This document shows positions 21,614 to 37,507 of a stretch of DNA of 57,917 nucleotides, piece by piece; positions within the stretch are counted from its first letter, which is position 1, and the number at the start of each line of letters is the position of its first letter. The DNA is taken from NCBI GenBank assembly GCA_947176765.1, contig CAMWRX010000009.1, positions 1-57,917 of the forward strand. Direction: 5' to 3'. A program made the position numbers and the translations under genes. The stretch is from an uncultured bacterium. Its GTDB lineage: Bacteria > Bacillota > Clostridia > Oscillospirales > Oscillospiraceae. The notes under the pieces are model-generated. The model saw only the letters and a list, made by a program, of their open reading frames with translations, was not told where the DNA came from and did not search any database.

Positions 21614-22303
21614 CTAAACACTTTTTCGCTTTCGGATTTCTTCCCGCTGGATGGCAAAGATGGCCTGGAGCAGGCGATCCTGATCCCTGGCGCTCAGCGC
21701 CACAAACTGGCAGCCGTAGCGGACTATACCCTTATTCCATGCCCCGCTTCGGCGGACCAAGCAGTTGAAGCTGAACGTGGGCGCGTCCGCCAAAAGCGGG
21801 ATATCCGTGACCAACAGGAGGTCGCCCTCGGTATAGATTTCCTTACTGCCAAGGAGCATACCCCCGGCGCTGATGTCCAGCACCTGGCAGGGAAACAGTA
21901 CATTGGGCGGGCCGCCCCTGGCAAGGCGCTTGCCGCACTGGGCCATGATCTCCACGCTGATGCTCTGGCGGAAAAAGGCCCGGTGCTCATGGGTAAACGC
22001 GCTGCGCAGCCGGTCCACCTTCCACATCCGCATGGTGCTGCCGCACACTTTCCCCTGGAGTACAACGCTGCCCTGGTCGGTGAAGAACCGCAGCTTGAGA
22101 TCCTTATTGACCAGCACCATGGGCAGCGTATCGTCGTTGGTGTCCCGGATGCACACAGCGCCCTCCTGGATGGTTTCGATCTTGCCCACAAAGAGCAGGC
22201 GGTTTTCCGGCGTCATCACTTCCACCGCCGCGCCCCGGCGCCCGCCGGAGCCAAGCACCTGCTCCAATGGAACCGTCTGGCCTGTCTGGGATGCCGCATT
22301 CAT
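21614..22303 (-). CDS. PilZ-domain c-di-GMP receptor, YcgR-like (first copy)
   Basis: This 229-aa protein has an N-terminal YcgR-like domain (about 10-105) and a C-terminal PilZ domain. The c-di-GMP motif RxxxR is present as HRAFFRQ, and the second motif (D/N)xSxxG as LDISAGGMLLG. YcgR-type proteins slow the flagellar motor or act on other targets when c-di-GMP is high. It follows the 1,222-aa SLH gene by 40 bases on the same strand and is closed by a terminator. GGGGGG precedes ATG 22303. Confidence 0.87.
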   Translation of the reverse strand: MNAASQTGQTVPLEQVLGSGGRRGAAVEVMTPENRLLFVGKIETIQEGAVCIRDTNDDTLPMVLVNKDLKLRFFTDQGSVVLQGKVCGSTMRMWKVDRLRSAFTHEHRAFFRQSISVEIMAQCGKRLARGGPPNVLFPCQVLDISAGGMLLGSKEIYTEGDLLLVTDIPLLADAPTFSFNCLVRRSGAWNKGIVRYGCQFVALSARDQDRLLQAIFAIQREEIRKRKSV

Positions 22304-22343
22304 GCCTCTGCCCCCCTTTCTTGTCTTGCCTCCATGCGGAGCC

Positions 22344-25300
22344 TCACATTGTCAGGACAAAATGCAGAATGACCGCCGCCTCCGCCCGGGTGATGGGGGC
22401 TTTGGGATTCAGTCTGCCGTTGCTGCCCGTCACCGCGCCCATCTGCACCAGGGCGCCTACCGCGTCTCTGGCATAGCTGGACACCAACTGGTAATCGGAA
22501 AACTGGGTCAGGAGCGCGGTGCCGCCGCTGCCCGGGTTTTTCCCCATTTTGATCAGCGTGTTATACACCATCACCATGGCGTCCTCCCGGGTGATGGCGC
22601 TGGCCGGCAGGAAATACCCGCCCGATCCCCGCACAATGCCCAGATATTTGGCGGAGGCCACCGCCGAGGCATAATAAGAGTTCATCGGCACGTCAGGGAA
22701 GCTGTAGGTCCCCGCGGCGGGGAAGCTGAAGCCCCGGCTGAGCATCAGGATAAAGTCGCGCCGCAGGATGTACTGGTTCGGCCCAAAGCGGTTGTTGCCT
22801 ATGCCGTTCACCACGCCGTTCCGGTTCAGATAGTCCACGGCGGAAGCGGCCCAGACGTAGTTGCCCATATCCCGGAAATAGCTGGAGCCGGTAGCCGCCA
22901 CAATGTTAAAGACGATCCGCCCGGTGACCTGCTCCCCGCTGGTACTCACCGCGGTGTAGCCCACCTCCACCTGGCCCGTATACCGGCCCCGGGGGACAAA
23001 GCTGAGCTGACTGATGCTGGGGCTGCTGGATACATAGTACCGGGTGCCGGTGTTGGCCGGGGTCCCGGTGCCCAGCTTGGTATACCCCACATACAGCCGT
23101 CCGGCGGAGGTGGAGGGCAGGTTGTTCAGCGTGATGTAGGACAGCGGATTCCTTGTCAGCCCGCTGCACGCGCTGGACAGGTCAGAAGCGCTGACCTGCA
23201 GGGGGTTGGCGTTGGTACCAGTGTAGGTGATGGTGTTGGGGGTGACCTGGATGACCACTTCGCCCGTAAAGGATACGCCGTTGGTATTGTACCCGGTATA
23301 GGGCAGCGTCACCGTTCCCACATAGCCGGTATTGGCCTGGAAGTAGACGTTGCCGATCAGCACAGTCGAACTCGAGGAGTTGGGGTTGACGCGGTAGCAC
23401 TGGGTGGAGGTAGATACAGTGCCATAGTTGCTGCCGGTCATATAGCGGTAGCGCAGATAGCCCTGAGCGGTGGTGGGCGCCGTGGAGAAGCGCACATAGT
23501 TCAGGCTGGCTCCCGTGGCGTTGATGCAGGCGTTGTTGAAGTCGTTGACGTTGAAGGATACCGTCTTGCCGCTGCTGACGCTGTACCGGAGGCCCGTCCG
23601 GTTGGCCTCGTCCAGGTCGATGTACACCATACCGGTGTACACAGTGCCTCTCGCCCCGTAGCCGGTATAGGGAATGGCCACCTGGCTGGGAGCCGTCGAG
23701 GAGGACACGAAGGACAGCGTGCTCAGGCCGGGCGCGCCGCTGGCATAGTAGCTGGTGTTGGGGCTGGCTATGCCGCCGTAGCTGCCGGCGGCCCAGTAGT
23801 TGACGTACAGCGTGCCCTCGCTGGCAGCGGGCAGAGAGCCAAAGCGCACGTAGGACAGCTGTTCGCCGATGGTGTTATAACAGGCAAGATTGAACGCGCT
23901 GGCGTTAAACGCCACCCGCCCTTCCCGCAGGCCGCTGAAGTGTACGTCGGATAAGCTGTTCCCGCCGTTTTGCTTGGTGACGCTGATGGTCACCACACCG
24001 GAGTAGGTGCCCCCGTTGGCGTCCATCCCCCGGTAGGCGATGGCCACCGAACTGGGACAGGTGCTGGACGGGATGAAGCTGACCCGATCCAGGCTGGGAG
24101 TCCGGGTGCGGTAATACTGGGTGCCGCTGGTGACGGCCTGGCCCGGGTGAGTGGGCCCGTTGTAGTCATACCTCAGCTCGCCCCAGCTTGCCTGGGGCAG
24201 CGTAAAGGTGATATAGTTCAGGCTCCGGCCGCCCTGCTTGCTCTGGCAGATGCGGTTGAAATCGTCCGCCTGGAAGGACAGGGGCTGACCGGCCACAGCG
24301 GTGTAAAATACATCGTTGGCCGCCCCCACCGTCACCCGGATGGTGCCGGAGAAGAACTGGTTGTCAACGGTGCAGCCGGTATAGCTGATGTCGGCGGTGC
24401 CCGAAAACGTATTTTTCGCCACGAAGGACAGGTCGGACAGGGGTGTCTGCCCCAGAGCGGTATTGCCGTGCAGGTAATAGCGATCCATGCTGCCCACGCC
24501 CGCCCCTGTGTCCGCCTCAGAGCGGTGGTTGTCGTGGAGGATGCCCTGGCTGGTGGCCACGGACAGGTTGTTGATGTAGCTCAGCCCGCTGCCGGTGTTA
24601 TACTGGGCGATGGAGTTCAAAACGCTGGAGATGGTGCCGGAAAACTTGACCTGATTGGTTTCCGGGTCGCGTACAGTGGCGGAGGCGGTGGCCAGATTGA
24701 CCGAACTGCCCGCTGTGATCTGCTGGCCCACCTGGATCAGGCCGGAGACGTCCTCCTGTACGGTGACGGTCACCTCAGCGTCGGCGTAACCCACCAGGCC
24801 GGCAGTCACCTTGACAGTGCCCGGCGCACGGGCGGTGAGCTTACCGCTGTTATTAACGGACACGATGGAATCGTTGGAAGAATACCAGATGATGTTGCCA
24901 GTGGCGGTACGCGCGCTGCCAAAGCGATTTACCAGCAGCGTTTCCACGTCGCCCTCCCGCAGGGTGAGCTTGCCGTCCTGAATCGTCCTGATATCGCCCT
25001 GCAGGGTGATACCTGAAACCGTCAGATCCCACCTGCCCTCGGTGTCGCCGGAGGTCACGACGAGCTTGGCCGTGCCCGGGCCCACCACCGTTGCCACGGC
25101 GGAACACCCGGTCTTGTCGATGCTCGCCGGATCCTTGACCACCCGGATGACGGACTGGTCCGGTTGTCCCGTCTTTGGGTCCAGCACCTCCCACTTTACG
25201 CTGTCATAGGTAAAAATCGCTTCCGTAGGATCCGGGACAATGGTCAAACGCTTGGGGGCACTGTCTTCCGTCAGGCCCAGATCCAGCAGGTCGCCGCTGG

Positions 25301-26012
25301 GCACCGGATTTTGCCGCAGATTCAATATGGAGAACCAGCGGGGGCGGATGCCCACCGACACCTTACACGTGGCCGTGATCTCCTTGCCGTCGGCGCCTAT
25401 GATGGGGTCGCCGTTTTTGTCCACCGCCGTGGCGGTGATGGTTGCGCTGGCCCGGCTCCCAGCACTCCCGGCGTCGATGGCGGTGACCAGGCCGTCTTTC
25501 ACAGTGGCCACGCTCTCGTTGTCGCTGCTCCACTTCACCGTCTTGTCGTCGGCGTCAGCGGGGATCACGGTGGCGGTGAGCACAGCCGTTTCGCCCTTGA
25601 TGAGCAGCAGCTCCGTCTGGCTCAGCGTCACACCGGTGACGGGGACAGGCCCCTCGACGGTGACTGAGCAGGCGGCCGTGACCTCCCCGCCGTTCTCATC
25701 CACCACCGTTGCGATGATTGTGGTGGTGGTTCCCGGTGTTTTGCCGCGAACGCCACCACTCTGGTTGATGGTCACCCCTGTTCCATCTTTGCTCCAGACG
25801 ACGTTGGCTGGGTTACCGCTTTGATCGACACATTCCAGCTTTATCAATTCCTGCTCTTTCACAGTGATGGTGGTTCCCGTGACCACTTTCCCGTCCAGCA
25901 TGATTCTGATAGAAGTCGGATTTGCCGCCATGGCGGGCGTAACCGCCATGGACAGCGCCAGAACCCATGCCAGGGCCAGCGCGCTCAGGCGGCGCAATAG
26001 CGTATGCTTCAT
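22344..26012 (-). CDS. Large SLH surface protein with Ig-like domains and five tandem repeats
   Basis: This 1,222-aa secreted protein has a signal peptide ending TPAMA. Roughly four bacterial Ig-like (BIG2-type) domains follow at about 30-420 (for example VTLSQTELLLIKGETAVLTA). Five repeats of about 120 aa occupy roughly 425-1038. Three SLH modules end the protein (YFRDMGNYVWAASAVDYL, FPDVPMNSYYASAVASAKYL, and a third with SSYARDAVGALVQMGAVTG), which should anchor it to cell-wall polymer. The architecture suits an adhesin or S-layer-associated protein. AAAGGAG precedes ATG 26012. No obvious promoter fits between it and the terminator-like hairpin only about 30 bases upstream, so expression may depend on read-through. 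Confidence 0.85.
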   Translation of the reverse strand: MKHTLLRRLSALALAWVLALSMAVTPAMAANPTSIRIMLDGKVVTGTTITVKEQELIKLECVDQSGNPANVVWSKDGTGVTINQSGGVRGKTPGTTTTIIATVVDENGGEVTAACSVTVEGPVPVTGVTLSQTELLLIKGETAVLTATVIPADADDKTVKWSSDNESVATVKDGLVTAIDAGSAGSRASATITATAVDKNGDPIIGADGKEITATCKVSVGIRPRWFSILNLRQNPVPSGDLLDLGLTEDSAPKRLTIVPDPTEAIFTYDSVKWEVLDPKTGQPDQSVIRVVKDPASIDKTGCSAVATVVGPGTAKLVVTSGDTEGRWDLTVSGITLQGDIRTIQDGKLTLREGDVETLLVNRFGSARTATGNIIWYSSNDSIVSVNNSGKLTARAPGTVKVTAGLVGYADAEVTVTVQEDVSGLIQVGQQITAGSSVNLATASATVRDPETNQVKFSGTISSVLNSIAQYNTGSGLSYINNLSVATSQGILHDNHRSEADTGAGVGSMDRYYLHGNTALGQTPLSDLSFVAKNTFSGTADISYTGCTVDNQFFSGTIRVTVGAANDVFYTAVAGQPLSFQADDFNRICQSKQGGRSLNYITFTLPQASWGELRYDYNGPTHPGQAVTSGTQYYRTRTPSLDRVSFIPSSTCPSSVAIAYRGMDANGGTYSGVVTISVTKQNGGNSLSDVHFSGLREGRVAFNASAFNLACYNTIGEQLSYVRFGSLPAASEGTLYVNYWAAGSYGGIASPNTSYYASGAPGLSTLSFVSSSTAPSQVAIPYTGYGARGTVYTGMVYIDLDEANRTGLRYSVSSGKTVSFNVNDFNNACINATGASLNYVRFSTAPTTAQGYLRYRYMTGSNYGTVSTSTQCYRVNPNSSSSTVLIGNVYFQANTGYVGTVTLPYTGYNTNGVSFTGEVVIQVTPNTITYTGTNANPLQVSASDLSSACSGLTRNPLSYITLNNLPSTSAGRLYVGYTKLGTGTPANTGTRYYVSSSPSISQLSFVPRGRYTGQVEVGYTAVSTSGEQVTGRIVFNIVAATGSSYFRDMGNYVWAASAVDYLNRNGVVNGIGNNRFGPNQYILRRDFILMLSRGFSFPAAGTYSFPDVPMNSYYASAVASAKYLGIVRGSGGYFLPASAITREDAMVMVYNTLIKMGKNPGSGGTALLTQFSDYQLVSSYARDAVGALVQMGAVTGSNGRLNPKAPITRAEAAVILHFVLTM
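22897..24735 (-). repeat. Five tandem ~120-residue repeats within the SLH surface protein
   Basis: Five protein repeats share the pattern F..(D/S)(F/L)N.AC, then L.Y(I/V)RF..LP....G.LY..Y, then T.YY....PSLS.LSFV, then G.V.I.YTGY...G..YTG.V.I.V. Examples of the end motif are YTGYGARGTVYTGMVYI and YTGYNTNGVSFTGEVVI. Units start near residues 425, 555, 672, 795 and 920. The copies have diverged at the protein level, so this is an old duplication rather than an unstable DNA repeat. I do not recognise the domain. Confidence 0.75.
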
Positions 26013-26042
26013 GAATCAGGACTCCTTTGCGATTCATTCTTT

Positions 26043-26080
26043 CAAAAAAGGGCGGGAGCGGGCGGGTTCCGCCCGCTCCC
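26043..26080 (-). terminator. Terminator-like hairpin between the two SLH genes
   Basis: GGGAGCGGGCGG (26054-26065) and CCGCCCGCTCCC (26069-26080) form a 12-bp GC stem with a 3-base loop. On the minus strand it is followed by GCCC and six Ts. It lies only 31 bases from the next start codon, so it may act as an attenuator. Confidence 0.8.
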
Positions 26081-26098
26081 GGGGTGTGTGTCTATGCG

Positions 26099-29000
26099 TC
26101 AGTCCCAGTTGGTAGTGATGGTGGGCCGTTCTGCACTGCCTGCGGTCTGCCCCCCGGGTACCGTGACCGTGATCGTCAGGTATCTTACCCCGTTGGCGCC
26201 GCCATTGCCCGCCTTGTCCGCCACCTCATATCCATCGGATCCCCCTACCTGGAGAGTCCATGGCCCCGGCGTCAACACCTGGCCGGTTGGAACCGTGAAT
26301 TCGATACGGGTGATCGAGGTGGTTGTCTGCGCCGCCGGATGAATCGTATGTGCCGTAGTGGCAACAGGCACCAGCCGGTTTACGCCACTCGTCAACTGCG
26401 GCACCGAGACCCAGGTACCCGCCTTGTCCAGATCCAGTTGATTGCTGTGAACCTGATTGAGCAATTGACAGGTGTCGATCGGGTGGATGGTATTGCCATA
26501 GTAGGCAAATATCGGCTCAGTGAACTGGATAACGAACGTCGATCCGGCCGCTACGTTGCCGGCAGCATTCCATTCAAAGTCGGTCCAGCCGCTGTTCTGG
26601 ATCTTGGGCGGCGTATTGTCGCTCACCGACAGGGGGGCCCAGGCCCGGAAGGCCGGCTGGGAGCTCTTGCCGTCCGTCGACTCAGCCATAGCCACGATGG
26701 TATAGGTGAATGTGGAGTTCATATTGGTGCCGTTACAGCTGGTTCGATCTCCGGGGCCTCTCCTGGTCTCGCAGTTGAACTGGTTGCCCGACCCGGTAAT
26801 CGTGTACGGGTAGCCTCGGGTGGCGGTACTCCAGATATAGTCGCTATTACCGCTGCCTGCCGCTTGGTTCCTGATAATATCTGCGAAGTGATCCTTTCCC
26901 TGTGTCGAGGGTATGGCAAAGATGTCGAACACGCTGCCCACGTATTCCCTGGTGCTGCCCACCACCTGATAGCATTTTGTGGTCATGGCATCCAGCACGG
27001 TCATTGTCGCGGCGGAAACGCCCGTGGGGAACGCGAATTCATATCCGTCCGAATTCCCACCGGCGGCGGCTTTCTCCCAATCATTCTCCGCGTAGCCGTT
27101 GAAGGGATTCCTGAAGTCGCCCTGAGTGCCCAGCATCACGAAGAAGTGCATATTGGCCGTCCCTTTGGTTTCGGCGGTGACCATTGCGCCGGAGCCGGAC
27201 AGGTCGAAGTACGGGCGGGAGGCCATCTCTGTGGTGAAGCGGTAGCAGTACGCCGTTTTGTCAAATACATTGGAGTCGTTCTCGGTGATCATACACAGCA
27301 GATACACCGTGTTGGGATTCAGATTCTGGATGGTGAAGGTCGGCATATCCCTCGTGGTCAACCACTGGTTGGTCTGGGTGGGCACCTGGCCGTACTGAAC
27401 CCCCGCCCAGGGCACGGTGGCCTCCCCAGTAATCAGCTTCCACATCTCACCATCGTTCACCAGGCGGCTCGTCACCCGCAGCTCATCCACCACGGTGGAA
27501 GTACCCTTGTTCCACGCCTTATCGTGGTACATGATCGGGATATCTTTCAGCGGGATGGGGGCCGTTTGGGTTGCCGTATCCAGTGCGGCGGGCGTATAGT
27601 TGGTGACTGTCTGCACTTTCTCGTCGGTGAGGGTGCCGTTGTAGTCATTCTCTGTTCCCCTCAGGCCGCTCAGGGGCATCAGCATCCAGTAGACCCGCCC
27701 TTTGGCATCCAGGTTCAGGGTGATATCCACGGTGGTGTCATAAGTATCGATAGAGGGGAAGCCGCGGCTCGTCTGGATCTTAGGCGCTTTCTGATAGGGG
27801 AAGGGGTTCTCCATGTCCAGGTGCCTGACGCTGGTGTGGGACACATCGTAGCCGATTTCCTGGACATCGGCGGTCTCCCCGATCCACTTCTCATAGGTGG
27901 AGTCGTTGCCCTGTTTGGCCGCGCCGGATCCGGTGGACGACAGCTCCTTCTGTGTACCCGCGATGGCGTAGATCTTCATGGTCACCGGGCCGCTCCACAC
28001 GCTGCGGTCGCTCTCACCGCCGAGCACATCCACATGGATGGCGTACTCCATGGCCTCCATCTTGTTCACGAACGCGAATCTGCCCGGCTGGGTCGCTGTC
28101 AGGTCGGCGTTGTTGAACGTGACCGACGAGTTGACATTGTCCACATCGTTGAACCACCAGGCCAGGCTCTTGTACACCCACTGGTTCTGCTGGATGCCCA
28201 CGTTCTCCAGCTTCATCTGTCCCACTTCCGACCAATTGCCGCCGGCCGGGCGGGAGTAGAGCGTGAAGGTCATGGAGGTGTCCGAGCCGATCAGCAGGTC
28301 GCTGTACCAGGTGTCGGCCATCTGGCTTACGTTATCCGGGGTCACGGTAAAGTTGTAGTCGATTGCCACGGGGCTGCCGCCGACCTGGATTTCCGTCTCG
28401 CTCCGCCACTCCAGCCGCACCTTGCCGAAGGCCACGGTGAACGCGGGGGGCTCCTTGGTGCGGTCGATGTCCAGCGGATTGACCTGCATAGAGGCGTCCC
28501 GGATGTCCTTCATCTCGAAGTGATAGGTGGCGCCGCTCTGGAGGTTCAGGGCGCTGGTGGGCAGTACATTCCCATCCTCGTCCTTCACCGTGGGGAAGAG
28601 GATTTTCAGGGTGCCGTCGGTGGTGGGCTCGATCTCGGCGTAGCCGTAGTTGATGACCCAGTTGCCGACCGCCTTGGTGGGCTGGACGACGTTTTCCCCC
28701 TCAGGCTTCCTGTAGCTGTCGCAGGAGGGCGCTTCCTCCACACGGACGCTCTGGGCGGGGATGTATCCCATGCACAGCGGCATATAGGCATGCAGGGCTT
28801 CACCCCACGCGGTGCGGGCTCTCGCCTCCGCCTCCTTGTCCCCGTCTGTGACAGCCTTCTCCACTGCCTCATACAGCTTGCGGAAGCTCTCCTTGGCAGT
28901 CGCGCCTCCCTGGATGTTCTCAGAGAACACCAGCCGGATGGCACTGTCGGCCACAGGGCTTCTCGGGTCGCTGCTGTCCGGGATGGTGAACTCCTGGCGC

Positions 29001-31438
29001 AGCAGCTTGGGGGCGGTCCTGTCCACCGTGTGCACGGTGGCCTTCTCCACCTTGGAGTAGTTGCCCGCCGCGTCCTTCGCCACCATGTATATGACGTACG
29101 AGGAGGTGTTGGTCTTGGCGCTGTCCAGGCCGGTCGCCCTGATGAGCACTTCCGCATTGACTTGAGCGGCGCCGACCCTCACATTGCTGGCCTTGAGGGG
29201 ATTGCCCTTGGCGCTGGTCATGCCGATCTTGATCTGGAGCGTCTTGTCGTTGGGATCGAACGCACCGCCCACGTCCCGCTCCTCGAAAGCGGCCTCATAC
29301 TGCTCACCCTCAGGGATGATGGTCCAATAGACAGTGGATGCCTCGTCCACCGTGACGTTCATCTCAACGGTGGTCTCAGTGGCAGTGCCCTCCCGGGTTC
29401 TGGTGATGACCGGGGCGCGCTCGTCCGGGGTCTTGAACGGGACAGAGTACACCCGGGAGCTCTTGGCTCCGTCGTAGTCGGTGAGCCACAGGTAGGCCAC
29501 ATAATCGGTCTCCTGATCCAACGGACGGTCGTTCACATTGACGGTGATGTTGGTGTTCTTCATCACATCCCGCATACCGTAACCCAGATTGCCGCGCACG
29601 GCGTTGGCCTTGAACTCCGCGGCGGTGGGGGCGGTGGCTCCCTTGGGCAGCAGCGCGTAATAGAGCAGGCAGCTCTTGTTGGGCATACCGGTGACCTGTG
29701 CCACCTCGGTGGTGTTCCTGGAGATCTTGGGGCCGGATGTAAAGGCGGGCGTCGTTCCGTCCGGAGTGCTAAAGGCGGTGACCTTCACAGGGCTATGGGT
29801 GCCCCGGTTATCCACAAAGACGGCGCTGACATAGTAGGAGCCGGCCTGGGTCAGTCCGGTGAGGGAGGGCGCTTTGACCTCGGTTTTGCTGGAGGTTATT
29901 TTGACGGAGCCGGACTTGAGGATCTTTCCGCCATAGACAGGCGGCTCGATCAGGTCATCCTCGCTCACCGAGCCGTCGGACACGGCGGTGACCGCCCAGT
30001 AGACCGTGCCCGCCTTATTGGTGCTGAACACCAGTTCGGCGGAGTTGGGGGCGATGTTCTTCACCTTGGGATAGCCCGCCAGCAGCCTGGGGTCGGCGGA
30101 GGATTCGGCGGCCTGGGCGCTGTTCATGGTGGAGCCGTTGATGTCGGAGGTGATGCCCGGACGGATGGTGATGTCGTCGGGGAGCTGCTCCACAGTGGTG
30201 CCCGCGGCGCCCACGTTCAGGTTCTTGATGTCACCCTCGCCGGTGACCTTGGTGGCCACGTCCAGGTTCAGGCTGTCCACCTGGGCGTCGCCGTCCACAA
30301 GGACAGAGGAGTTGGTGGCGTGCTCGTCTATGGTGATCTTATTGGCGGAACCCTGCACCACCTGGAGTTCGGAGTTGGGGGTCTTGTTCCACACTTCCTT
30401 CACGTTGCCCGCCAACTGGAGCAGACCGCCGCCGTCCTGAATAATCATGCCCAGCCCGTTAAAGCCGGGCAGAGAGGAATCGTCCACATAGGCGTTGGTG
30501 CGCACGGTGGTGGTGCCGATGTCAGTGATACCCTCGGCCCGGAGGGTGACAAACTGGTTGCTGATGCTGTCCACACTCATGGACTTGGCCGTCACGTTGC
30601 GCAGGGTGACGCTGCTCTGGGAGGAGTGGCTCTCGCCGCCGCCGCTGACGATGATCTCACCCAGCACGTTGACGTTCTCCAGCACCACATCGCCCAGGTC
30701 GATGCCGCCGGTGAGATAGAGGTTGCCGGCGATGGTGCCGTTTCTCAGCGTCACCCCGGCGGTATTGACGGTGACGTTGCCGTACACGTCGCCCAGAGTA
30801 TGCTCACCCTCGGTGTTGACCATGGTGCCGATGGCCTTCACCAGCATGGAGGCCACCTCGCCCCGGGTGATGTTCTGCTTTGGCTTGAAGCTGCCGTCCG
30901 AATATCCGCCGATGATGCCCATGTCGGCGGCGGCGCCCACCAGACCCCGGCTCCACTCGCTGAGGGAGCGGCTGTCTCTGAACTGGAGCCCCTCGCCCAC
31001 GTTTTCCTGGAGCATCATGTTCCGGGTCAGCATCACAGCGGCCATCTCCCGGGTCAGGTTGGCCCTGGGAAGGGCATAGCCGGAAGCGCCCTTGAAATAG
31101 CCCATATTATAGGCAATGTTGATGTCTTGATAATACCAATCACTGGTCCGCACGTCCGGGAACGGCATTTCGCCTAGGCTTTTGTAGCCGTAGGCGCGGT
31201 TCATCATGGCGACGAACTCCGCCCGCGTGATGGGGCGCTCCAGAGCCAGGTTGCCGTTGTCGCCCCGCATGACGCCCCACTCCACCAGCTTCTGGGCGTA
31301 GGGCATGGCCCAGTGGGCGGCCTGGACGGGGAGTACCGTCCCCGGCAGCAGGGCAAGGATCAGCGCCAGGGACAGGATGCCAGACAGCCCCCGGCGCAGC
31401 CAGTTTCGGATCGTAGATTTCTTGGGTTGCTTGCTCAT
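26099..31438 (-). CDS. Giant SLH surface protein with beta-helix and FN3/Ig-like domains
   Basis: This 1,779-aa protein has a signal peptide (MSKQPKKSTIRNWLRRGLSG, cleavage near PVQA). Three SLH modules at about 42-210 follow (HWAMPYAQKLVEWGVMRGDN; FPDVRTSDWYYQDINIAYNM; RDSRSLSEWSRGLVGAAADM). Next comes a repetitive beta-helix-like segment, about 215-360 (GDVYGNVTVNTAGVTLRNGT). The remainder is a string of fibronectin-III/Ig-like modules, several built round a (V/L)YW or YY strand such as AGTVYWAVTAV, STVYWTIIPEG and GRVYWMLMPLSG. ATG 31438 is taken because AAAGGA lies upstream and the signal peptide starts there. Probably an S-layer-associated fibre. Confidence 0.85.
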   Translation of the reverse strand: MSKQPKKSTIRNWLRRGLSGILSLALILALLPGTVLPVQAAHWAMPYAQKLVEWGVMRGDNGNLALERPITRAEFVAMMNRAYGYKSLGEMPFPDVRTSDWYYQDINIAYNMGYFKGASGYALPRANLTREMAAVMLTRNMMLQENVGEGLQFRDSRSLSEWSRGLVGAAADMGIIGGYSDGSFKPKQNITRGEVASMLVKAIGTMVNTEGEHTLGDVYGNVTVNTAGVTLRNGTIAGNLYLTGGIDLGDVVLENVNVLGEIIVSGGGESHSSQSSVTLRNVTAKSMSVDSISNQFVTLRAEGITDIGTTTVRTNAYVDDSSLPGFNGLGMIIQDGGGLLQLAGNVKEVWNKTPNSELQVVQGSANKITIDEHATNSSVLVDGDAQVDSLNLDVATKVTGEGDIKNLNVGAAGTTVEQLPDDITIRPGITSDINGSTMNSAQAAESSADPRLLAGYPKVKNIAPNSAELVFSTNKAGTVYWAVTAVSDGSVSEDDLIEPPVYGGKILKSGSVKITSSKTEVKAPSLTGLTQAGSYYVSAVFVDNRGTHSPVKVTAFSTPDGTTPAFTSGPKISRNTTEVAQVTGMPNKSCLLYYALLPKGATAPTAAEFKANAVRGNLGYGMRDVMKNTNITVNVNDRPLDQETDYVAYLWLTDYDGAKSSRVYSVPFKTPDERAPVITRTREGTATETTVEMNVTVDEASTVYWTIIPEGEQYEAAFEERDVGGAFDPNDKTLQIKIGMTSAKGNPLKASNVRVGAAQVNAEVLIRATGLDSAKTNTSSYVIYMVAKDAAGNYSKVEKATVHTVDRTAPKLLRQEFTIPDSSDPRSPVADSAIRLVFSENIQGGATAKESFRKLYEAVEKAVTDGDKEAEARARTAWGEALHAYMPLCMGYIPAQSVRVEEAPSCDSYRKPEGENVVQPTKAVGNWVINYGYAEIEPTTDGTLKILFPTVKDEDGNVLPTSALNLQSGATYHFEMKDIRDASMQVNPLDIDRTKEPPAFTVAFGKVRLEWRSETEIQVGGSPVAIDYNFTVTPDNVSQMADTWYSDLLIGSDTSMTFTLYSRPAGGNWSEVGQMKLENVGIQQNQWVYKSLAWWFNDVDNVNSSVTFNNADLTATQPGRFAFVNKMEAMEYAIHVDVLGGESDRSVWSGPVTMKIYAIAGTQKELSSTGSGAAKQGNDSTYEKWIGETADVQEIGYDVSHTSVRHLDMENPFPYQKAPKIQTSRGFPSIDTYDTTVDITLNLDAKGRVYWMLMPLSGLRGTENDYNGTLTDEKVQTVTNYTPAALDTATQTAPIPLKDIPIMYHDKAWNKGTSTVVDELRVTSRLVNDGEMWKLITGEATVPWAGVQYGQVPTQTNQWLTTRDMPTFTIQNLNPNTVYLLCMITENDSNVFDKTAYCYRFTTEMASRPYFDLSGSGAMVTAETKGTANMHFFVMLGTQGDFRNPFNGYAENDWEKAAAGGNSDGYEFAFPTGVSAATMTVLDAMTTKCYQVVGSTREYVGSVFDIFAIPSTQGKDHFADIIRNQAAGSGNSDYIWSTATRGYPYTITGSGNQFNCETRRGPGDRTSCNGTNMNSTFTYTIVAMAESTDGKSSQPAFRAWAPLSVSDNTPPKIQNSGWTDFEWNAAGNVAAGSTFVIQFTEPIFAYYGNTIHPIDTCQLLNQVHSNQLDLDKAGTWVSVPQLTSGVNRLVPVATTAHTIHPAAQTTTSITRIEFTVPTGQVLTPGPWTLQVGGSDGYEVADKAGNGGANGVRYLTITVTVPGGQTAGSAERPTITTNWD

Positions 31439-31514
31439 GAATGTGACCGTTCCTTTCCGGCGCGGCGGAGCGCGCCTATCCGTGTCTGCTGTTGATCTAT
31501 TGTGAAAGGGAAGC

Positions 31515-31535
31515 CGGACGGATCGGCTCCGTCCG
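31515..31535 (-). terminator. Short hairpin between the PilZ gene and the giant SLH gene
   Basis: CGGACGGA (31515-31522) and TCCGTCCG (31528-31535) form an 8-bp stem with a 5-base loop in the 107-base gap. It has no U-tract on the minus strand, so it is a weak candidate for a pause, processing or partial termination site. Confidence 0.35.
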
Positions 31536-31545
31536 ACCGTCCCCA

Positions 31546-32154
31546 TTAAGCGTCGTATTCAGACGGCTTGGGCCTGCCCCGCAGCTGGAGGTTAAACACC
31601 GCCTCCCGCAGCAGCGTCTCCTCATCGTTGCACAAGTCCACAAACTTGGCGGCGTACAGGATGTCCGAGCGCTCGGTGGGGCGCATCCGCAGAAGCTCGC
31701 ACTGCACCACCAGCGGCTGGCTGGTCACAGGGATAACAACTTCCAGCCGCTCCCCAATCTGGAGGCTGTTGTCGGTGAAGAAGGCGATGCCGCCGCAGCT
31801 CAGGTCGTTGGACTCCACGACCCGCCGCCCCCTCCAGCGGCCGCTGACAGGGTAGATAAAGCTTTTGAACCGGACGATCACCCGCAGGTTCTTGCGCATA
31901 TCCCCGGCCTCGGGGGTGAGCTTGGTGACCTCCAGCTGGATCATATCGTTGCGGCTGCGCACAATGATGCCCTCATAGGAGGGCCCGGTGTCCATGATGG
32001 ACAGCAGTTTCAGCCGCTTGTGCTCCAAAATCTCGTCGATCTTGCCGTCCTCCACCTGGATCTGCCAGAACGGGCCGTCTGTTTTCCCCTGGATGCGCCC
32101 CCTGGCAATGGGGTTATTCTTGCTGTCCAGCATCAGATATAAAGTCTGCTCCAT
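31546..32154 (-). CDS. PilZ-domain c-di-GMP receptor, YcgR-like (second copy)
   Basis: This 202-aa protein has an N-terminal YcgR-like beta domain (1-90) and a C-terminal PilZ domain with RxxxR as MRKNLRV and DxSxxG as NDLSCGGIAFF. Both c-di-GMP motifs are intact. ATG 32154 has 8 bases from AGGAG. An in-frame ATG at 32160 that overlaps the upstream stop as ATGA is an equally possible start with poorer spacing. It follows the FhlB-like gene directly, so it is likely part of a flagellar regulatory operon. Sequence similarity to the first PilZ copy is limited outside the motifs. Confidence 0.87.
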   Translation of the reverse strand: MEQTLYLMLDSKNNPIARGRIQGKTDGPFWQIQVEDGKIDEILEHKRLKLLSIMDTGPSYEGIIVRSRNDMIQLEVTKLTPEAGDMRKNLRVIVRFKSFIYPVSGRWRGRRVVESNDLSCGGIAFFTDNSLQIGERLEVVIPVTSQPLVVQCELLRMRPTERSDILYAAKFVDLCNDEETLLREAVFNLQLRGRPKPSEYDA

Positions 32155-32156
32155 CC

Positions 32157-32507
32157 TCATCTCTCCTGTTCCGCCTGATCGCCGCCGCCCGCGGCCTGGG
32201 GCGCCGGCTTGGGTTTGGCGCCCTCCTCAACCTTATTGGGATCGAAGTGCAAAAAGTACACATAGATCTCCACAATGGCCCTGTACAGCTCCTCGGGGAT
32301 CTCCTGGCCCAGCTTCAACTGGGTGAGGATGGTGGCCAGGGAGTTGTCCTCATAGATGGGCACGCCGCTGTCGGCGGCCACCTCCACGATCTTTTCCGCC
32401 ATATATCCCATGCCGGAGGCCACGATCACCGGCGCGTTGTTCCCCGCCTCGTATTGGAGGGCCACCGCCTTCTTGGACGGATTCCGCCTGCCGTCATACC
32501 TTGACAT
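32157..32507 (-). CDS. FhlB-like protein (YlqH type, stand-alone FlhB C-terminal domain)
   Basis: This 116-aa protein resembles the cytoplasmic C-terminal domain of the flagellar export-gate protein FlhB without its membrane part. NPSKKAVALQYEAGNNAPVI corresponds to the region after the FlhB NPTH cleavage site, and VPIYEDNSLATILTQL with EIPEELYRAIVEIYVYF is the conserved tail. Stand-alone homologues can substitute for the FlhB C-domain in substrate switching. ATG 32507 overlaps the end of the FliK-like gene by 14 bases. Pairing with a FliK-like protein fits the known functional partnership. Confidence 0.85.
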   Translation of the reverse strand: MSRYDGRRNPSKKAVALQYEAGNNAPVIVASGMGYMAEKIVEVAADSGVPIYEDNSLATILTQLKLGQEIPEELYRAIVEIYVYFLHFDPNKVEEGAKPKPAPQAAGGGDQAEQER

Positions 32508-33921
32508 TGACACTGTTCTTCCCTTCAAAAATTTTGGGGAACACCTCGGTCAGCGTGATCGGGCGCTCCATTTTCCGCACGCTGATCCCGGCGGGGGTCA
32601 GCTCGTTGCGCGTCAGGATCTGGGAGATGGTCTGCTCCACCTGCTTGGAGAAGGGGGCCACCGTCTCGGGGCAGGCCACCATGACGTCCACCTCCCGCTC
32701 CCGGTTGGTGAGCACCACATCGAACAGGCCCACGTTCTGCACATCTATTTTAAAGAGGAACCTCATGCATTTCTCGCCTTGGCCCTTGCCGCCCTTCTTC
32801 TCCTCCGCGTCGGCGTCCACCCACAGCTCGGAAAACAGCATCTTCCCGTCCATCTCCAGCGGGATCAAGAAGTGGGCCAAGGGCATATACACGCTCTCGT
32901 TGATGAGGATGGAGGACACCAGGTTGCGGAACACCTCCTGCACCTCGGCGCTGCCCTCTCCCCGCAGGGCCCGGGCGGCGGCGGCGGCCAAATGATCGGC
33001 AAACTGGGTGGCGGAGGACATCTTTGCCTGACTGCTCTGGAGCAGCTTCAGCAGGGCAGGGCCGTCGATGTTTCCCAGCATCCCCTTCAGTGTACCATAT
33101 CCGGTGAGCTGATGGAAGGCCTCCTGGAGCTTATCTTCCGAACCGTTTTCGTACCGGGCCAGATCCAGCGCCAGCAGGCTGATCAGCTCCCGGGGGGTGC
33201 CCAGGTCGTGGGTCTGGCTGACGTAGGAGGACATGAGGGGGAACACCTGCTGCTGCAAAAGGTTGATGTTCCCCTGCCGGTCTCCGGCGGCGATGCCGTT
33301 TTCCAGCTGGGCCAGCAGCTGGCGCAATTGATCCCCCCAGCTGGCGGGCATGGCGTTGGCCATATTGGCCAGGTTGCGCAGCAGGTTGCCCTCCAGATGG
33401 CCGGTGGAGGAGTAGTCGCTGTAGTTCTTCAAAAAATTCAGAATATCCAGCCGGACCCCGTCCGCGTCCGCCCGGGCATAGGCGTTTCGCAGCAGGGCGA
33501 ACAGCGCCCCGCCGAACCGGGTTCCCGCCTTCATCTGGGCGCTGAGGAACTGGAGCAACTGGCCCTCGTCCATCTTCAGCATCTCCATCGCCTGGGACAT
33601 CTCCTCGGCGATGCCCTCGCTCATGCCCGAGACCACCGACGTCCCCTCCCGGAGCATCAGGCGGGACAGGGTGCCCGTCAAGTCCTGGGTCTGGCGCAGC
33701 TGCTGGATAAAGGTCTGGAAGTTGGAGTCGTACCGGACCTGCCCGCCGGCCTGGCTGGCATCCTGCTGCTCGGTACGGTTGTCCGCCCCCGTCACCCGGG
33801 AGGGATCAGGGATGTTCTGAACCTGAGTATTGTTCGGGGAGATGGGAATGTTGCGGTTGGTAATGCTATTCGTATTGTCATGACCCGGTATCGGGTTGGT
33901 CACTCCCAAAAGATCAGGCAT
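32494..33921 (-). CDS. FliK-like flagellar hook-length-control-type protein (YlqG position)
   Basis: This 475-aa protein has a low-complexity N-terminus that opens MPDLLGVTNPIPGHD and a long helical middle. Its C-terminal domain has HFLIPLEMDGKMLFSELWVD and VLTNREREVDVMVACPE, the pattern of the FliK C-terminal domain that contacts FlhB. The overlap with the FhlB-like gene strengthens this, since ylqG-ylqH is a conserved Firmicutes pair. Direct similarity to classical FliK is weak, so hook-length control is not proven. AGGGGTG precedes ATG 33921. It is divergent from cheA. Confidence 0.65.
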   Translation of the reverse strand: MPDLLGVTNPIPGHDNTNSITNRNIPISPNNTQVQNIPDPSRVTGADNRTEQQDASQAGGQVRYDSNFQTFIQQLRQTQDLTGTLSRLMLREGTSVVSGMSEGIAEEMSQAMEMLKMDEGQLLQFLSAQMKAGTRFGGALFALLRNAYARADADGVRLDILNFLKNYSDYSSTGHLEGNLLRNLANMANAMPASWGDQLRQLLAQLENGIAAGDRQGNINLLQQQVFPLMSSYVSQTHDLGTPRELISLLALDLARYENGSEDKLQEAFHQLTGYGTLKGMLGNIDGPALLKLLQSSQAKMSSATQFADHLAAAAARALRGEGSAEVQEVFRNLVSSILINESVYMPLAHFLIPLEMDGKMLFSELWVDADAEEKKGGKGQGEKCMRFLFKIDVQNVGLFDVVLTNREREVDVMVACPETVAPFSKQVEQTISQILTRNELTPAGISVRKMERPITLTEVFPKIFEGKNSVNVKV

Positions 33922-33959
33922 TTTTTCACACCCCTGAGATAAAACTTAGAAAACCTACT

Positions 33960-33986
33960 TAATTTTCACCCGCGTCCTGCCGATAA
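33960..33986 (+). promoter_or_regulatory. Sigma-D (sigma-28)-type promoter of cheA
   Basis: TAAT (33960-33963), 15 bases, GCCGATAA (33979-33986). The B. subtilis sigma-D consensus is TAAA, N15, GCCGATAA, so the -10 octamer is perfect. It lies 39 bases before cheA. Confidence 0.85.
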
Positions 33987-34025
33987 TAGTAAAGATAAAA
34001 GATATTTACTGAGGTGGTGCTTTTT

Positions 34026-36122
34026 ATGGGCAGCGGAAACGAAATCCTGGATATGTACATCTATGAGACAACCAGCCTGCTGGAGCAGCTGGAGACCATC
34101 ATCCTTGAAGCGGAAAAGGTGGACACCTTCTCGCAGGAGAACGTGAACGAGATCTTCCGCGTCATGCACACCATCAAGGGCTCTTCCGCCATGATGGAGT
34201 TCGACACTCTGGCCACGGTGGCCCACCGGATCGAGGATATGTTCTTCATCATCCGGGAAGGCACCATGTCCGTGGTCTCCGAGGAAAACCGCCCGGCGCT
34301 GTTTGATGTGGTGTTCCAGTCCATCGACTTCTTCCGGGGCGAGGTCGAAAAGGTGGAAGCAGGCGAGCCTCTTGATAAGAATATCGACAGCTTCCTGTCA
34401 AATATTAATACCCTAATCGCTAAAATTAAGGGAGAGGATGTGCCGGCGGAGGCCGCCGCTCCTGCCGCCTCCGCCAGCGCAGCGTCCCCCGCCGGGCAGG
34501 CGGCCCCCTCTCCGGCGGCTCCCGCCGCCGCGGCTGACGGCTTCCCCTGCGGGCTGCGGGTGAACTTCGAGGAAGGCTGCGGCATGGAGAGCCTGCGGGC
34601 CTTCATGGTGGTCACCGCCGTGAAGGACGTGGTGGCTGATGAGGACTTTACCTTCGAGCCCGCCAACGTGGAGAACGACCCCTCTACCTCCGAGAGCATC
34701 ATTGACAACGGCTTCCACCTGATGTTCAAGACCGCCGAGATGCGCAACAGCGCCATCTCTGTGGTCAAGGGCGTGGGATCGGTGCAGGGCTACCAGCCCT
34801 ATGACTGCCCGCCCCCCGAGGCCAAGCCCGCTGAGACCAAGCCCGCCGTCGCGGCAGCCGGGGAGCCCGCTCCCGCCGCGGCAGCCCCCGCGCGGGCGGC
34901 AGCCCCCGCCGCAGCCCAGCAGCAACAGCAGCAGCACCCCAAGGAGACGCTGATCAGCGTCAACCTGTCCAAGCTGGATCAACTGTCCGCCGTGGTGGGC
35001 GAGATCGTCATCACCGAATCCATGGTCACCTCCTCCCCCGATCTGAAGGGGCTGAACCTGGACGCCTTCTCCAAGTCCGCCCGGCAGCTGCGCAAGCTCA
35101 CCGACGAGCTTCAGGACGTGTCCATGTCCCTGCGCATGGTTCCCGTGTCCGGCGTGTTCCAGAAGATGACCCGCATCGTGCGTGACATGACCAAGAAGCT
35201 CAACCGCCCGTGCAAGCTCACCCTCATCGGCGAGAACACCGAGGTGGATAAGACCATCGTGGACTCCATCGGCGACCCCATCATGCACATGGTCCGCAAC
35301 TCCATGGATCACGGCATCGAGGAAACCCAGGAGGAGCGCGTCGCCGCCGGCAAGGATCCGGTGGGCGAGATCATCCTGTCCGCCCGGGACACCGGCAGCG
35401 AGGTCATCATCGAGATCATCGACGACGGCCGGGGCGTCAACGACGAGGCGGTGCTGGCCAAGGCCATCCGCCAGGGCATCGCCTCCCCCGACGTGGAGTA
35501 CAGCCACAAGGACATCCTCAACTTCCTGCTGGCTCCCGGTTTCTCCACCAACACCGAGGTCACCGAATACTCCGGCCGGGGCGTGGGCATGGACGTGGTG
35601 AAAAAGGGCGTGGAGGAGCTGGGCGGCAGCGTGACCATCTCCAGCCAGTTGGGCCACGGTATGACCACCACTATCCGCATCCCGCTGACCATGGCCATTA
35701 TGGACGGCATGGAGGTGTCGGTGGGCGGCTCCATCTTCACCATTCCCATCAACAACATCCTGTCCACCATGAAGGTGTCCGCCAAGGACGTCATCCACGA
35801 CTCCAGCAGCGGCGAGATCATCAAGGTTCAGGGCAATTTCTATCCCATTGTCCGGGCCAGGGAGCTGTATCAGCTCCAGAGCGGCTGCACCGATATTGAG
35901 GACGGCGTACTCATCTGGCTGGAGTCCGGCGATCACTCCTACTGCCTGTTCGTAGATGAGCTGCTGGGCCAGCAGCAGGTGGTGGTCAAGCAGCTGCCCG
36001 CCTACGTGAACAGCTACAATATCAAGAATTTTGGCATCAACGGCTGCACCCTGCGCAGCGACGGCAGCATCAGCATCATTCTGGACGTGGCCAATTTGTA
36101 CACCGCCGCCCGGGGTATGTGA
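34026..36122 (+). CDS. cheA: Chemotaxis histidine kinase CheA
   Basis: This 698-aa kinase has the HPt domain with phospho-accepting H48 in RVMHTIKGSSAMMEF. An Ala/Pro linker follows, then a P2-like response-regulator-binding domain (about 175-265). Another Ala/Gln linker precedes the dimerisation domain, the HATPase core (N-box MHMVRNSMDHGIEE; G-box GRGVGMDVVKKG) and the C-terminal CheW-like domain. It autophosphorylates and passes phosphate to CheY and CheB. ATG 34026 is 8 bases from AGGTGG; the in-frame GTG at 34014 overlaps that site. First gene of cheA-W-R-B behind a sigma-D promoter. Confidence 0.97.
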   Translation: MGSGNEILDMYIYETTSLLEQLETIILEAEKVDTFSQENVNEIFRVMHTIKGSSAMMEFDTLATVAHRIEDMFFIIREGTMSVVSEENRPALFDVVFQSIDFFRGEVEKVEAGEPLDKNIDSFLSNINTLIAKIKGEDVPAEAAAPAASASAASPAGQAAPSPAAPAAAADGFPCGLRVNFEEGCGMESLRAFMVVTAVKDVVADEDFTFEPANVENDPSTSESIIDNGFHLMFKTAEMRNSAISVVKGVGSVQGYQPYDCPPPEAKPAETKPAVAAAGEPAPAAAAPARAAAPAAAQQQQQQHPKETLISVNLSKLDQLSAVVGEIVITESMVTSSPDLKGLNLDAFSKSARQLRKLTDELQDVSMSLRMVPVSGVFQKMTRIVRDMTKKLNRPCKLTLIGENTEVDKTIVDSIGDPIMHMVRNSMDHGIEETQEERVAAGKDPVGEIILSARDTGSEVIIEIIDDGRGVNDEAVLAKAIRQGIASPDVEYSHKDILNFLLAPGFSTNTEVTEYSGRGVGMDVVKKGVEELGGSVTISSQLGHGMTTTIRIPLTMAIMDGMEVSVGGSIFTIPINNILSTMKVSAKDVIHDSSSGEIIKVQGNFYPIVRARELYQLQSGCTDIEDGVLIWLESGDHSYCLFVDELLGQQQVVVKQLPAYVNSYNIKNFGINGCTLRSDGSISIILDVANLYTAARGM

Positions 36123-36139
36123 GAAGGAGAGATGAAGAT

Positions 36140-36622
36140 ATGAACGACGAAATCATGTTCGCCCGTGAGGACGAGATGGAAGCCCTAAATACCGTAGACG
36201 ACGCGGTGGACTCCCAGAAATACCTCATTTTCATGGCCGGCCATCTGAAGCTGGGCGTGGCGGCTGAGGACGTGGTGGAAATCCTGAACAACCAGGTCAT
36301 CACCTATCTGCCCATGGTGCCCAACTTCATCCGGGGCATCATCAATATGCGCGGCCAGATGATTCCCATCCTGGACATATGCGCCCGAATGGGGATGGAG
36401 GCCCGGGAGGATGACAGCCTGGTGGTGGTCATCAACCTGGACGACGTGCAGCTTGGCCTCCTGGTGGACGGCGTGGATCAGATGCTGGACATCCCCAAGG
36501 CCAATATCCTCCCCATGCCCGCCAACAGCACCCAGATGCTGGTGTCCGGGATGTGTTCCCTGCCCGACGGCTCCGGCACCATGATGGTGCTGGACAGCGA
36601 GCAGCTAATGCCCAATGAATAA
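36140..36622 (+). CDS. cheW: Chemotaxis adaptor CheW
   Basis: This 160-aa protein is a single CheW domain linking chemoreceptors to CheA at the membrane. KYLIFMAGHLKLGVAAEDVV, PNFIRGIINMRGQMIPILDI and LGLLVDGVDQMLDIP are the conserved blocks. The start is ATG 36140; AAGGAG lies 10 bases upstream, and the ATG at 36132 reads straight into a stop. It begins 17 bases after cheA and overlaps cheR by 8 bases. Confidence 0.95.
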   Translation: MNDEIMFAREDEMEALNTVDDAVDSQKYLIFMAGHLKLGVAAEDVVEILNNQVITYLPMVPNFIRGIINMRGQMIPILDICARMGMEAREDDSLVVVINLDDVQLGLLVDGVDQMLDIPKANILPMPANSTQMLVSGMCSLPDGSGTMMVLDSEQLMPNE

Positions 36623-37460: not shown

Positions 37461-37469
37461 TCAATTCAG

Positions 37470-37507
37470 CCGGACCGACCTGCGCCTGCCGGTCGGCCCG
37501 GTATTTT
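37470..37507 (+). terminator. Hairpin between cheR and cheB
   Basis: CCGGACCGACC (37470-37480) pairs with GGTCGGCCCGG (37491-37501) with one mismatch and a 10-base loop, then TATTTT. It may only partly terminate, because cheB has no clear promoter of its own. Confidence 0.6.

Follow-up and report, generated by a model that had tools for sequence, protein, structure and literature searches.

Conserved linkage of giant SLH surface-protein genes with flagellar and PilZ genes in the Oscillospira group: a possible motility-linked surface-fiber module

Genes and features of the run

The window analyzed here is a 57,917-nucleotide stretch of DNA from an uncultured bacterium of the family Oscillospiraceae. 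According to its list of open reading frames, six genes lie on the minus strand in 21614..33921 (Table 1), in agreement with the same-strand run that an earlier, sequence-only reading had described. Consecutive junctions are, in order, a 35-base overlap, a 4-base overlap, and gaps of 107, 86, and 40 bases. The start of SLH1 was set at the ATG ahead of a signal-peptide-like stretch, the longest open reading frame beginning at 31546; gene starts in the loci of relatives are guesses from start codons and ribosome-binding sites.

TABLE 1 Coordinates of the minus-strand run, its hairpins, and the divergent chemotaxis side within the window
Feature	Position	Strand	Basis or remark
475-aa conserved protein, adjoins fhlB	33921-32494	-	
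FhlB, 123 aa, stand-alone homologue of the FlhB C-terminal domain	32528-32157	-	Pfam Bac_export_2, 5.9e-21
PilZ1, 204 aa	32160-31546	-	Pfam PilZ
SLH1, 1,779 aa	31438-26099	-	Pfam SLH repeats
SLH repeats of SLH1	30851..31318	-	
CBM-54-like right-handed beta-helix region, SLH1 residues about 232-421	30176..30745	-	Profile match to ChiW 5gzt
Intercistronic hairpin, SLH1/SLH2 gap	26081-26053	-	13-bp stem, T-rich tail here
SLH2, 1,222 aa	26012-22344	-	Pfam SLH repeats
SLH repeats of SLH2	22374..22877	-	
PilZ2, 229 aa	22303-21614	-	Pfam PilZ
Terminator-like hairpin, 3' of PilZ2	21577-21531	-	20-bp stem
cheA-cheW-cheR-cheB, divergent	34014..38598	+	Pfam
Sigma-D-like motif TTAA-N17-CCGATAA	33959..33986	+	Directed at cheA
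Shared divergent region	33922..34013	.	Conserved TTAAGTAG...AAGTTTT on minus-strand side

On the plus strand, Pfam identified cheA, cheW, cheR, cheB, flgM, flgN, and flgK as neighbors. The run diverges from a cheA operon with a sigma-D-like motif, as had been proposed: the motif is aimed at cheA in the window, and a strict pattern found it in that direction in 35 of 75 loci. Toward the minus-strand run the same pattern was found in none of the 75, some of the gaps searched being shortened by over-long open reading frames. Sigma-D control of the minus-strand genes was rejected because neither the window nor the 75 loci had the strict motif that way.

The first two genes had been labeled flagellar-export regulators, a description that held for the FhlB protein only. 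FhlB matched positions 257 to 334 of the 335-position Bac_export_2 profile and lacks the membrane part; a second match falls within an open frame of 368 aa on contig C70. The FliK-like label given to the 475-aa protein was dropped as unsupported. No Flg_hook match was found by Pfam in the window protein, and among 24 orthologues the domain appeared weakly in 2 (best E value, 0.033). One related locus, L126, encodes a separate FliK with a clear Flg_hook domain (6.8e-13), with which the 475-aa protein shares no detectable similarity (hhalign probability, 0.2%). A sequence search of the PDB returned no convincing relative of the 475-aa protein.

Both PilZ assignments were upheld by Pfam, with E values of 5.8e-11 and 4.7e-14 and scores of 43.1 bits for PilZ1 and 53 bits for PilZ2 against a cut-off of 22.5; all 22 PilZ1 rows matched the domain at E values up to 0.1. 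PilZ proteins bind c-di-GMP through the motifs RxxxR and (D/N)xSxxG. In the window these read RKNLR (residues 89 to 93) and DLSCGG (119 to 124) in PilZ1 and RAFFR (108 to 112) and DISAGG (143 to 148) in PilZ2. The two motifs are intact in 78/79 and 79/79 aligned PilZ1 sequences, respectively, and in 20/20 and 13/14 PilZ2 sequences, counting those of the 29 given rows with residues aligned there. Neither protein has solved relatives in the PDB detectable by sequence. Flagellar brakes of the YcgR/MotI type carry a YcgR-type N-terminal domain. The PilZ proteins of the run resemble these brakes in the PilZ domain and the c-di-GMP motif, with the gene standing here among flagellar genes; they differ in that Pfam recognized nothing in their N-terminal region, where a divergent YcgR-type domain may nevertheless be present.

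The two giant SLH proteins were confirmed, each having three SLH repeats, at the N terminus of SLH1 and the C terminus of SLH2. Reading the translations by eye, both begin with a signal-peptide-like stretch. In SLH1 this is followed by the SLH repeats, the CBM-54-like beta-helix, and FN3-like and other stretches; in SLH2 it is followed by Big_2 domains, repeats, and the SLH repeats. The beta-helix matched two chains of the ChiW structure 5gzt (profile E values, 5.8e-9 and 2.7e-6). As far as described for ChiW of Paenibacillus sp. FPU-7 (PMC5132251), SLH1 shares with it the SLH repeats and the CBM-54 right-handed beta-helix, downstream of which ChiW has Ig-like domains and SLH1 has FN3-like stretches. 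It differs from the described ChiW (PMC5132251) in that no catalytic domain was matched in SLH1, either by Pfam or by PDB profile search, and in departing from the published self-cleavage motif. CBM-54 self-cleavage was considered for the window SLH1 and rejected: in place of GGG-X-[NQDH]-S-[VI] it has SGGGESHSSQSSV, with extra residues separating GGG from S-V. The search pattern fitted 30 of 71 sequences, in which the residue preceding S-V/I is mostly S or A.

Gene order and the SLH1/SLH2 hairpin in relatives

Loss of the gene order in relatives, which the sequence-only reading had named as evidence against its proposal, did not occur. The scan of genome contigs retained 80 of 306 relatives. 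Among 80 loci selected by FhlB, PilZ1 came next in 78, the remaining 2 being contig ends, and SLH1 was present in 75 of the 78. Within the family, SLH1 adjoined PilZ1 in 31 of 32 PilZ1 loci outside the window, some of them ended by contig ends; 14 family loci were picked from SLH1 and PilZ1 matches, and their order was therefore partly selected for. Outside the family, 18 loci selected by SLH1 were fetched, and in all 17 that were readable upstream SLH1 lay behind FhlB and PilZ1. These sets overlap, and their counts are not additive (e.g., L086/L088 with L055/L054; L089 with L156; and L099, L114, and L121 with L169, L173, and L172).

Three family groups of the taxonomic order (f1, f13, and f23) share the arrangement; SLH1 also occurs in a fourth, f17, on a contig that stops before the upstream genes. 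This recurrence is more than chance. The core consists of the 475-aa protein, FhlB, PilZ1, and SLH1; most of the loci read continue with SLH2, and some have PilZ2. Among the best 20 of 49 plasmid records listed, matches were confined to the inside of cheA.

Four loci (L126, L130, L133, and L162) kept the FhlB-PilZ1 part and had no SLH gene at the locus itself, so the SLH genes are separable from the flagellar locus. Two of them, L126 and L133, were nested among carriers in a midpoint-rooted tree read with branch support values left aside. These loci bear on the idea that SLH1 belongs to the flagellum itself as a structural accessory, for instance a collar or guide anchored in the wall at the site where the filament passes through the envelope. 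Its close co-occurrence with FlhA and its fixed place beside flagellar genes agree with such a role, but flagellar loci without SLH1, together with 14 FlhA-positive family genomes that lack it, make this explanation improbable.

In 56 of 65 loci, a hairpin of 10 to 15 bp separates SLH1 from SLH2, and comparable hairpins were found in the other gaps of the run at only 8/76, 0/22, and 0/79 loci. Nine of the 65 lack it, including that of Oscillibacter valericigenes (L147), whereas the cultured carrier Pseudoflavonifractor sp. 524-17 has the version with the hairpin. Eight of the 11 stem pairs changed on both sides, a degree of covariation matched by none of 500 shuffles, although the structure tested came from the same alignment and was thus favored over slid versions. 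The alignment (A2) omits 8 of the 56 hairpin loci (L077, L080, L108, L109, L127, L138, L141, and L145); among the loci, L076 and L077 belong to one assembly and seem identical, and L138 differs little from L141. An origin as a widely dispersed repeat was rejected, the exact core pattern having one other site in the genome. At gathering score, no Rfam match to a c-di-GMP riboswitch or other known RNA was found in the whole window, and an E-value search of the run gave three matches, all far below gathering.

For clostridia, internal terminators are described whose stems are long and GC rich and whose U content is low (PMC9045158). Judged from its features, the hairpin qualifies as a putative element of this class, having a long GC-rich stem and reduced U content and lying between genes of an inferred operon. 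With the described terminators of clostridial ABC importer operons (PMC9045158) it shares the long GC-rich stem, the weak U tract, and neighboring genes that may need unequal dosage; it differs in separating two giant surface-protein genes. The same likeness and difference apply to selective RNA processing and stabilization operons (PMC8219983). The covarying hairpin is a new observation and resembles the published clostridial internal terminators.

The conserved hairpin between the SLH genes suggests that SLH1 and SLH2 are unequally expressed, so the run need not be one uniform program. The hairpin may also be an operon boundary. The first transcript could end there, SLH2 and PilZ2 forming a separate unit with a promoter within or before the end of SLH1, a possibility that is compatible with the other readings. 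The window hairpin, a strong stem followed by six consecutive T, speaks for such an end, as does a similar hairpin that 17 of 39 loci have at the cheB-flgM boundary. However, 28 of the 56 stems have fewer than 4 T among the 8 bases that follow, and the median distance of 37 bases from the stem to the SLH2 start leaves little room for a promoter. Furthermore, the gap measures 64 to 110 bases in 53 of the 56 loci with the hairpin, compared with 13 to 41 bases in 8 of the 9 without it (those with a start found). On balance, we regard a transcript end at this site with a separate SLH2-PilZ2 unit as rather unlikely.

Co-occurrence with flagella and the c-di-GMP link

Among 120 family genomes, FlhA was found in 14 of 15 carriers of the module versus 14 of 105 noncarriers (Fisher P = 8e-10, with kinship ignored), as well as in 35 of 35 further SLH1 carriers. 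Adjacency to flagellar genes can itself cause joint loss, and this test is therefore not independent of linkage. FlhA was absent from five genomes of the same genus, all of which lack PilZ1; the four of them inspected for SLH1 lack it as well. When up to a handful of candidates were considered per genome, long SLH1 matches occurred in the same 15 of the 120 genomes as PilZ1, adjoining it; the match that ranked next was limited to the N-terminal part.

It could be argued that the two SLH proteins are wall proteins of a general S-layer or housekeeping kind and came to lie by the flagellar genes through a frozen accident. The 55 SLH-domain matches of the genome would suit that explanation, as would the lower conservation of SLH2, whose slot is filled by other genes in some relatives. 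The distribution of long SLH1 matches and the FlhA-less genomes described above count against it, and we consider it very unlikely.

The sequence-only reading had inferred a c-di-GMP-controlled surface program in which motility is damped as fibers are displayed. As to its first part, a link of the cluster to c-di-GMP is supported: in addition to the intact PilZ motifs, a GGDEF-EAL gene occupies the SLH2 slot in Agathobaculum loci, a receiver-HD-GYP-type gene follows PilZ2 in L133, and the genome with the window has two GGDEF matches. Its second part was not supported, as nothing found pointed to opposite regulation and SLH1 carriers nearly always have FlhA. Certain PilZ proteins are known to act as flagellar brakes. 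A switch in which PilZ brakes motility while adhesive or S-layer fibers mark the sessile state would draw on this precedent, on the intact motifs, and on the c-di-GMP enzymes in or beside the cluster of relatives. Given that nearly all SLH1 carriers tested have FlhA and that no Rfam match to a c-di-GMP riboswitch reaches gathering score in the window, such a switch seems unlikely. The co-occurrence of SLH1 and FlhA would fit coexpression with flagella at least as well.

Proposed role of the module

That a giant SLH protein keeps a fixed place in a cluster of flagellar and c-di-GMP-sensing genes suggests a part in the motility program. Our preferred interpretation, to which we give roughly even odds (about 0.5), is that the Oscillospira group has here a motility-linked surface-fiber module, which includes c-di-GMP receptors and a second fiber gene subject to attenuation. 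Transcription of the run would start in the divergent region that it shares with cheA. Swimming cells would secrete the SLH proteins through the Sec pathway and hold them in the wall as long fibers, which may help the cells, in mucus or on surfaces, to move or to make reversible contact. With rising c-di-GMP, the PilZ proteins would adjust flagellar output or the function of the cluster. The hairpin would act as a partial internal terminator or RNA stabilizer, holding SLH2 (and PilZ2) below SLH1. Fiber display would thus accompany motility rather than replace it.

Large surface proteins with a role in motility have been described in Paenibacillus. SlhA of Paenibacillus alvei is an SLH-anchored surface protein whose loss, as described, abolishes swarming and lowers biofilm formation (PMC3776848). 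It resembles SLH1 and SLH2 in its SLH anchor, which is predicted for the latter two; according to the same description (PMC3776848), it differs in having its gene in a secondary cell-wall polymer locus, away from flagellar genes, and in its C-terminal SLH repeats and CBM6. CmoA of Paenibacillus sp. NAIST15-1 is described as probably cotranscribed with flagellar genes and required on hard agar (PMC5072692). It is large, carries Ig-like repeats, and has its gene downstream of flagellar genes, and it is secreted, as is predicted for the similar proteins considered here (PMC5072692); it differs in its vWFA and IPT/TIG domains, and an SLH anchor and PilZ or FhlB partners go unmentioned in the available part of that source (PMC5072692). 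Among the open-license papers listed by full-text searches, none describes the cluster in its title or abstract opening. The available part of a paper on C. thermocellum biofilms (PMC5327387) names PilZ, SLH, and flagellar genes separately and has no such cluster.

A bolder version of the preferred interpretation, which we offer as speculation with a low chance of being right, would make SLH1 the founding member of an extracellular component of flagellar motility that is specific to this lineage. SLH1 would then be a wall-anchored fiber made with the flagellum and tuned by c-di-GMP through PilZ1, with an RNA attenuator setting the SLH1:SLH2 ratio where SLH2 is present. Such a fiber might contribute to the oscillatory movement, an unusual one, that has been reported for Oscillibacter (PMC3558957).

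The gene order is testable in cultured species, such as Oscillibacter valericigenes, and the hairpin may be a naturally occurring example of dosage control acting on a pair of giant surface proteins. If the preferred interpretation is true, gut bacteria would link surface display on the cell wall with c-di-GMP and with flagellar genes.

Gene content and order of the module

All six same-strand genes of the sequence-only reading were present as minus-strand open reading frames at the positions given, and Pfam agreed with its FhlB-like, PilZ and SLH labels: one protein matched the C-terminal domain of FlhB, two matched PilZ, and each of the giant proteins has SLH repeats. Its FliK-like label for the 475-aa protein was not supported, as the window protein has no Flg_hook match. 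Flg_hook gave weak matches to 2 of 24 orthologues (best E value, 0.033), and no profile similarity was seen to the FliK of L126, a relative's locus. The 475-aa protein is well conserved, with a mean column identity of 70% over 24 sequences. On the plus strand lie cheA, cheW, cheR, cheB, flgM, flgN and flgK, followed by a flgL-like gene (weak Pfam support), a DUF6470 gene, fliW and csrA. The long frame antisense to SLH1 may have arisen simply from GC-rich codon usage.

Conservation of the gene order was examined in four sets of relatives, and the order was kept. In a family draw of 120 genomes, counting the window's own, the 15 genomes with a strong PilZ1 match were also the 15 with a long SLH1 match. 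The 475-aa gene, FhlB, PilZ1, SLH1 and SLH2 followed one another at all 14 loci besides the window, with PilZ2 next in 6 of them and cheA divergent in 12 of the 12 whose contig was long enough. An FhlB alignment scan of a collection of genome contigs yielded 306 relatives, and among the 80 kept, PilZ1 came after FhlB in 78; the two misses are contigs that stop 133 and 141 bases past FhlB. SLH1 followed PilZ1 in 75 of the 78, and SLH2 followed SLH1 in 64 of the 75, the remaining 11 being exhausted contigs (6 loci) or Agathobaculum loci with a different gene (5 loci). PilZ2 was found in 28 of the 80, where the majority of contigs stop too soon to judge, and in 4 of 7 loci (window included) extending 700 bases beyond SLH2. 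With a PilZ1 profile, 300 family genomes yielded 38 matches, of which 33 were strong; SLH1, sometimes cut by a contig end, followed PilZ1 in 31 of 32 loci besides the window, the exception being L162. An SLH1 profile had 22 matches among 394 genomes of the order, spread over four family groups. Eighteen loci from outside the family were fetched; FhlB-PilZ1 directly preceded SLH1 in 17 of the 17 with upstream genes, at least 3 of these contigs being, to judge by their length, also among the 80, and the other sets overlap likewise. The eighteenth, from the fourth family group, lies on a contig that starts within the module.

Locations of features in the window and in relatives' loci (L numbers)
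Feature	Location	Strand	Context
Six-gene module	window 21614-33921	-	
SLH1-SLH2 hairpin	window 26053-26081	-	
1,716-aa open frame	window 26027-31177	+	antisense to SLH1
Conserved TTAAGTAG...AAGTTTT block	window, divergent region 33922-34013	minus-strand side	overlaps the sigma-D-like motif of cheA
S41 peptidase, PDZ and SLH domains	window 9312-11243	+	wall-anchored protease-like protein
DUF6470 protein	window 43026-43631	+	between flgL-like gene and fliW
~1,010-aa protein	L106, L114, L121, L137, L148		between SLH1 and PilZ2; Agathobaculum
Receiver + HD-GYP-type protein	L133:12273-13469		after PilZ1-PilZ2; SLH genes absent
475-aa-type, FhlB, PilZ1, ~500 bases, main flagellar operon	L126:11474-19741		operon types: rod, fliE, fliF, fliG, fliI, fliK, flgD

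Connections to flagella and c-di-GMP

FlhA was present in 28 of the 120 family genomes, namely 14 of 15 module carriers versus 14 of 105 non-carriers (Fisher P = 8e-10). The one carrier lacking it is an 80%-complete genome (G056) in which chemotaxis genes adjoin the cluster. Among 41 further genomes, FlhA was found in all 36 with PilZ1 or SLH1, which comprise 35 SLH1 carriers and G132, whose locus has no SLH genes. The other five (G066, G145, G202, G247 and G285) belong to the window's genus and have neither FlhA nor PilZ1 (0/5 each), so the window's genome is the sole FlhA-positive one among the six seen in the genus. This co-occurrence supports a flagellar link but is not proof of it, because the genomes are related and the genes linked.

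Flagellar neighbors are retained at four loci whose site has no SLH genes (L126, L130, L133 and L162). In L126, about 500 bases separate PilZ1 from rod, fliE, fliF, fliG and fliI-type genes; in the other three, PilZ2 follows PilZ1. In a midpoint-rooted tree, L126 and L133 nest among carriers, beside L099, which suggests that the SLH genes were lost on that branch. L130 groups with L147, a position compatible with either loss or primary absence.

Of 79 PilZ1 sequences, 78 carry the RxxxR motif and all 79 carry DxSxxG. For PilZ2, many of whose rows are cut by contig ends, the counts are 20/20 and 13/14 of those aligned there. The window's genome has two GGDEF matches. Six of the 80 loci are from Agathobaculum; in all five readable beyond SLH1, the ~1,010-aa protein occupies the SLH2 slot, and the three proteins tested all have GGDEF and EAL domains. 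Its relatives follow SLH1 in L172, L173, L175 and L176, the first two being contigs already in the earlier set. In G003, a genome without the module, the order after FhlB is VanY, an EAL/HDOD gene, then PilZ. At other loci, a c-di-GMP link of the gene after SLH1 was absent or unrecognized. In four loci of another family (L178 to L181), SLH1 is followed by a ~630-aa protein beginning MFDFLPISREDM (cut in L180), a putative YgiQ-like protein.

The hairpin between SLH1 and SLH2

With a minimum stem length of 9 bp, the SLH1-SLH2 gap was found to contain a hairpin in 56 of 65 loci, window included, the stems measuring 10 to 15 bp. A test of the same kind was positive in 8/76 PilZ1-SLH1, 0/22 SLH2-PilZ2 and 0/79 FhlB-PilZ1 gaps, in 0 to 6 of 35 to 57 for six gaps of the chemotaxis and hook operons, and in 17/39 at the cheB-flgM boundary. 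Against dinucleotide shuffles, z fell below -2 in 56/65 SLH1-SLH2, 12/76 PilZ1-SLH1 and 0/22 SLH2-PilZ2 gaps. A second draw, overlapping the first, gave the hairpin in 20 of 27 loci, with some stem sequences differing. When 48 of the 56 hairpin sequences were aligned, 96.2% of cells paired and 8 of 11 pairs showed changes on both sides, a level reached by 0 of 500 shuffles (slid structures gave 1 to 4 such pairs), although the sequences are related and the structure came from the same alignment. Half of the stems (28 of 56) are followed by a weak T tail.

It is possible that the hairpin marks an operon boundary. Internal terminators of clostridia, according to passages of Wu and colleagues (PMC9045158), combine a longer GC stem with a reduced U content and diminish expression downstream. 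Given this precedent, the conserved and covarying stem and the often weak T tail, we read the hairpin as a putative attenuator or stabilizer holding SLH2 below SLH1.

Possible function of the SLH proteins

In SLH1, residues ~232 to 421 match the CBM-54 beta-helix of ChiW, a chitinase, and a segment further along matches FN3 domains of chitinases; the ChiW self-cleavage motif, as described in part of PMC5132251, was not found in the window's SLH1. Conservation over 71 sequences, taken as majority share in 50-residue blocks, is highest in the first 650 residues (0.47 to 0.71, versus 0.16 to 0.56 in the remainder). The C-terminal SLH repeats of SLH2 have matches among S-layer anchors of solved structure, including Sap.

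SlhA of P. alvei and CmoA show, in excerpts of PMC3776848 and PMC5072692, that large surface proteins can be required for flagellar surface movement, and the CmoA gene, like that of SLH1, adjoins flagellar genes (PMC5072692, in part). O. valericigenes, a module carrier (L147), is described in a portion of PMC3558957 as having oscillatory motility driven by peritrichous flagella. From these precedents we infer that the SLH1/SLH2 module may provide a surface fiber of the motility phase.
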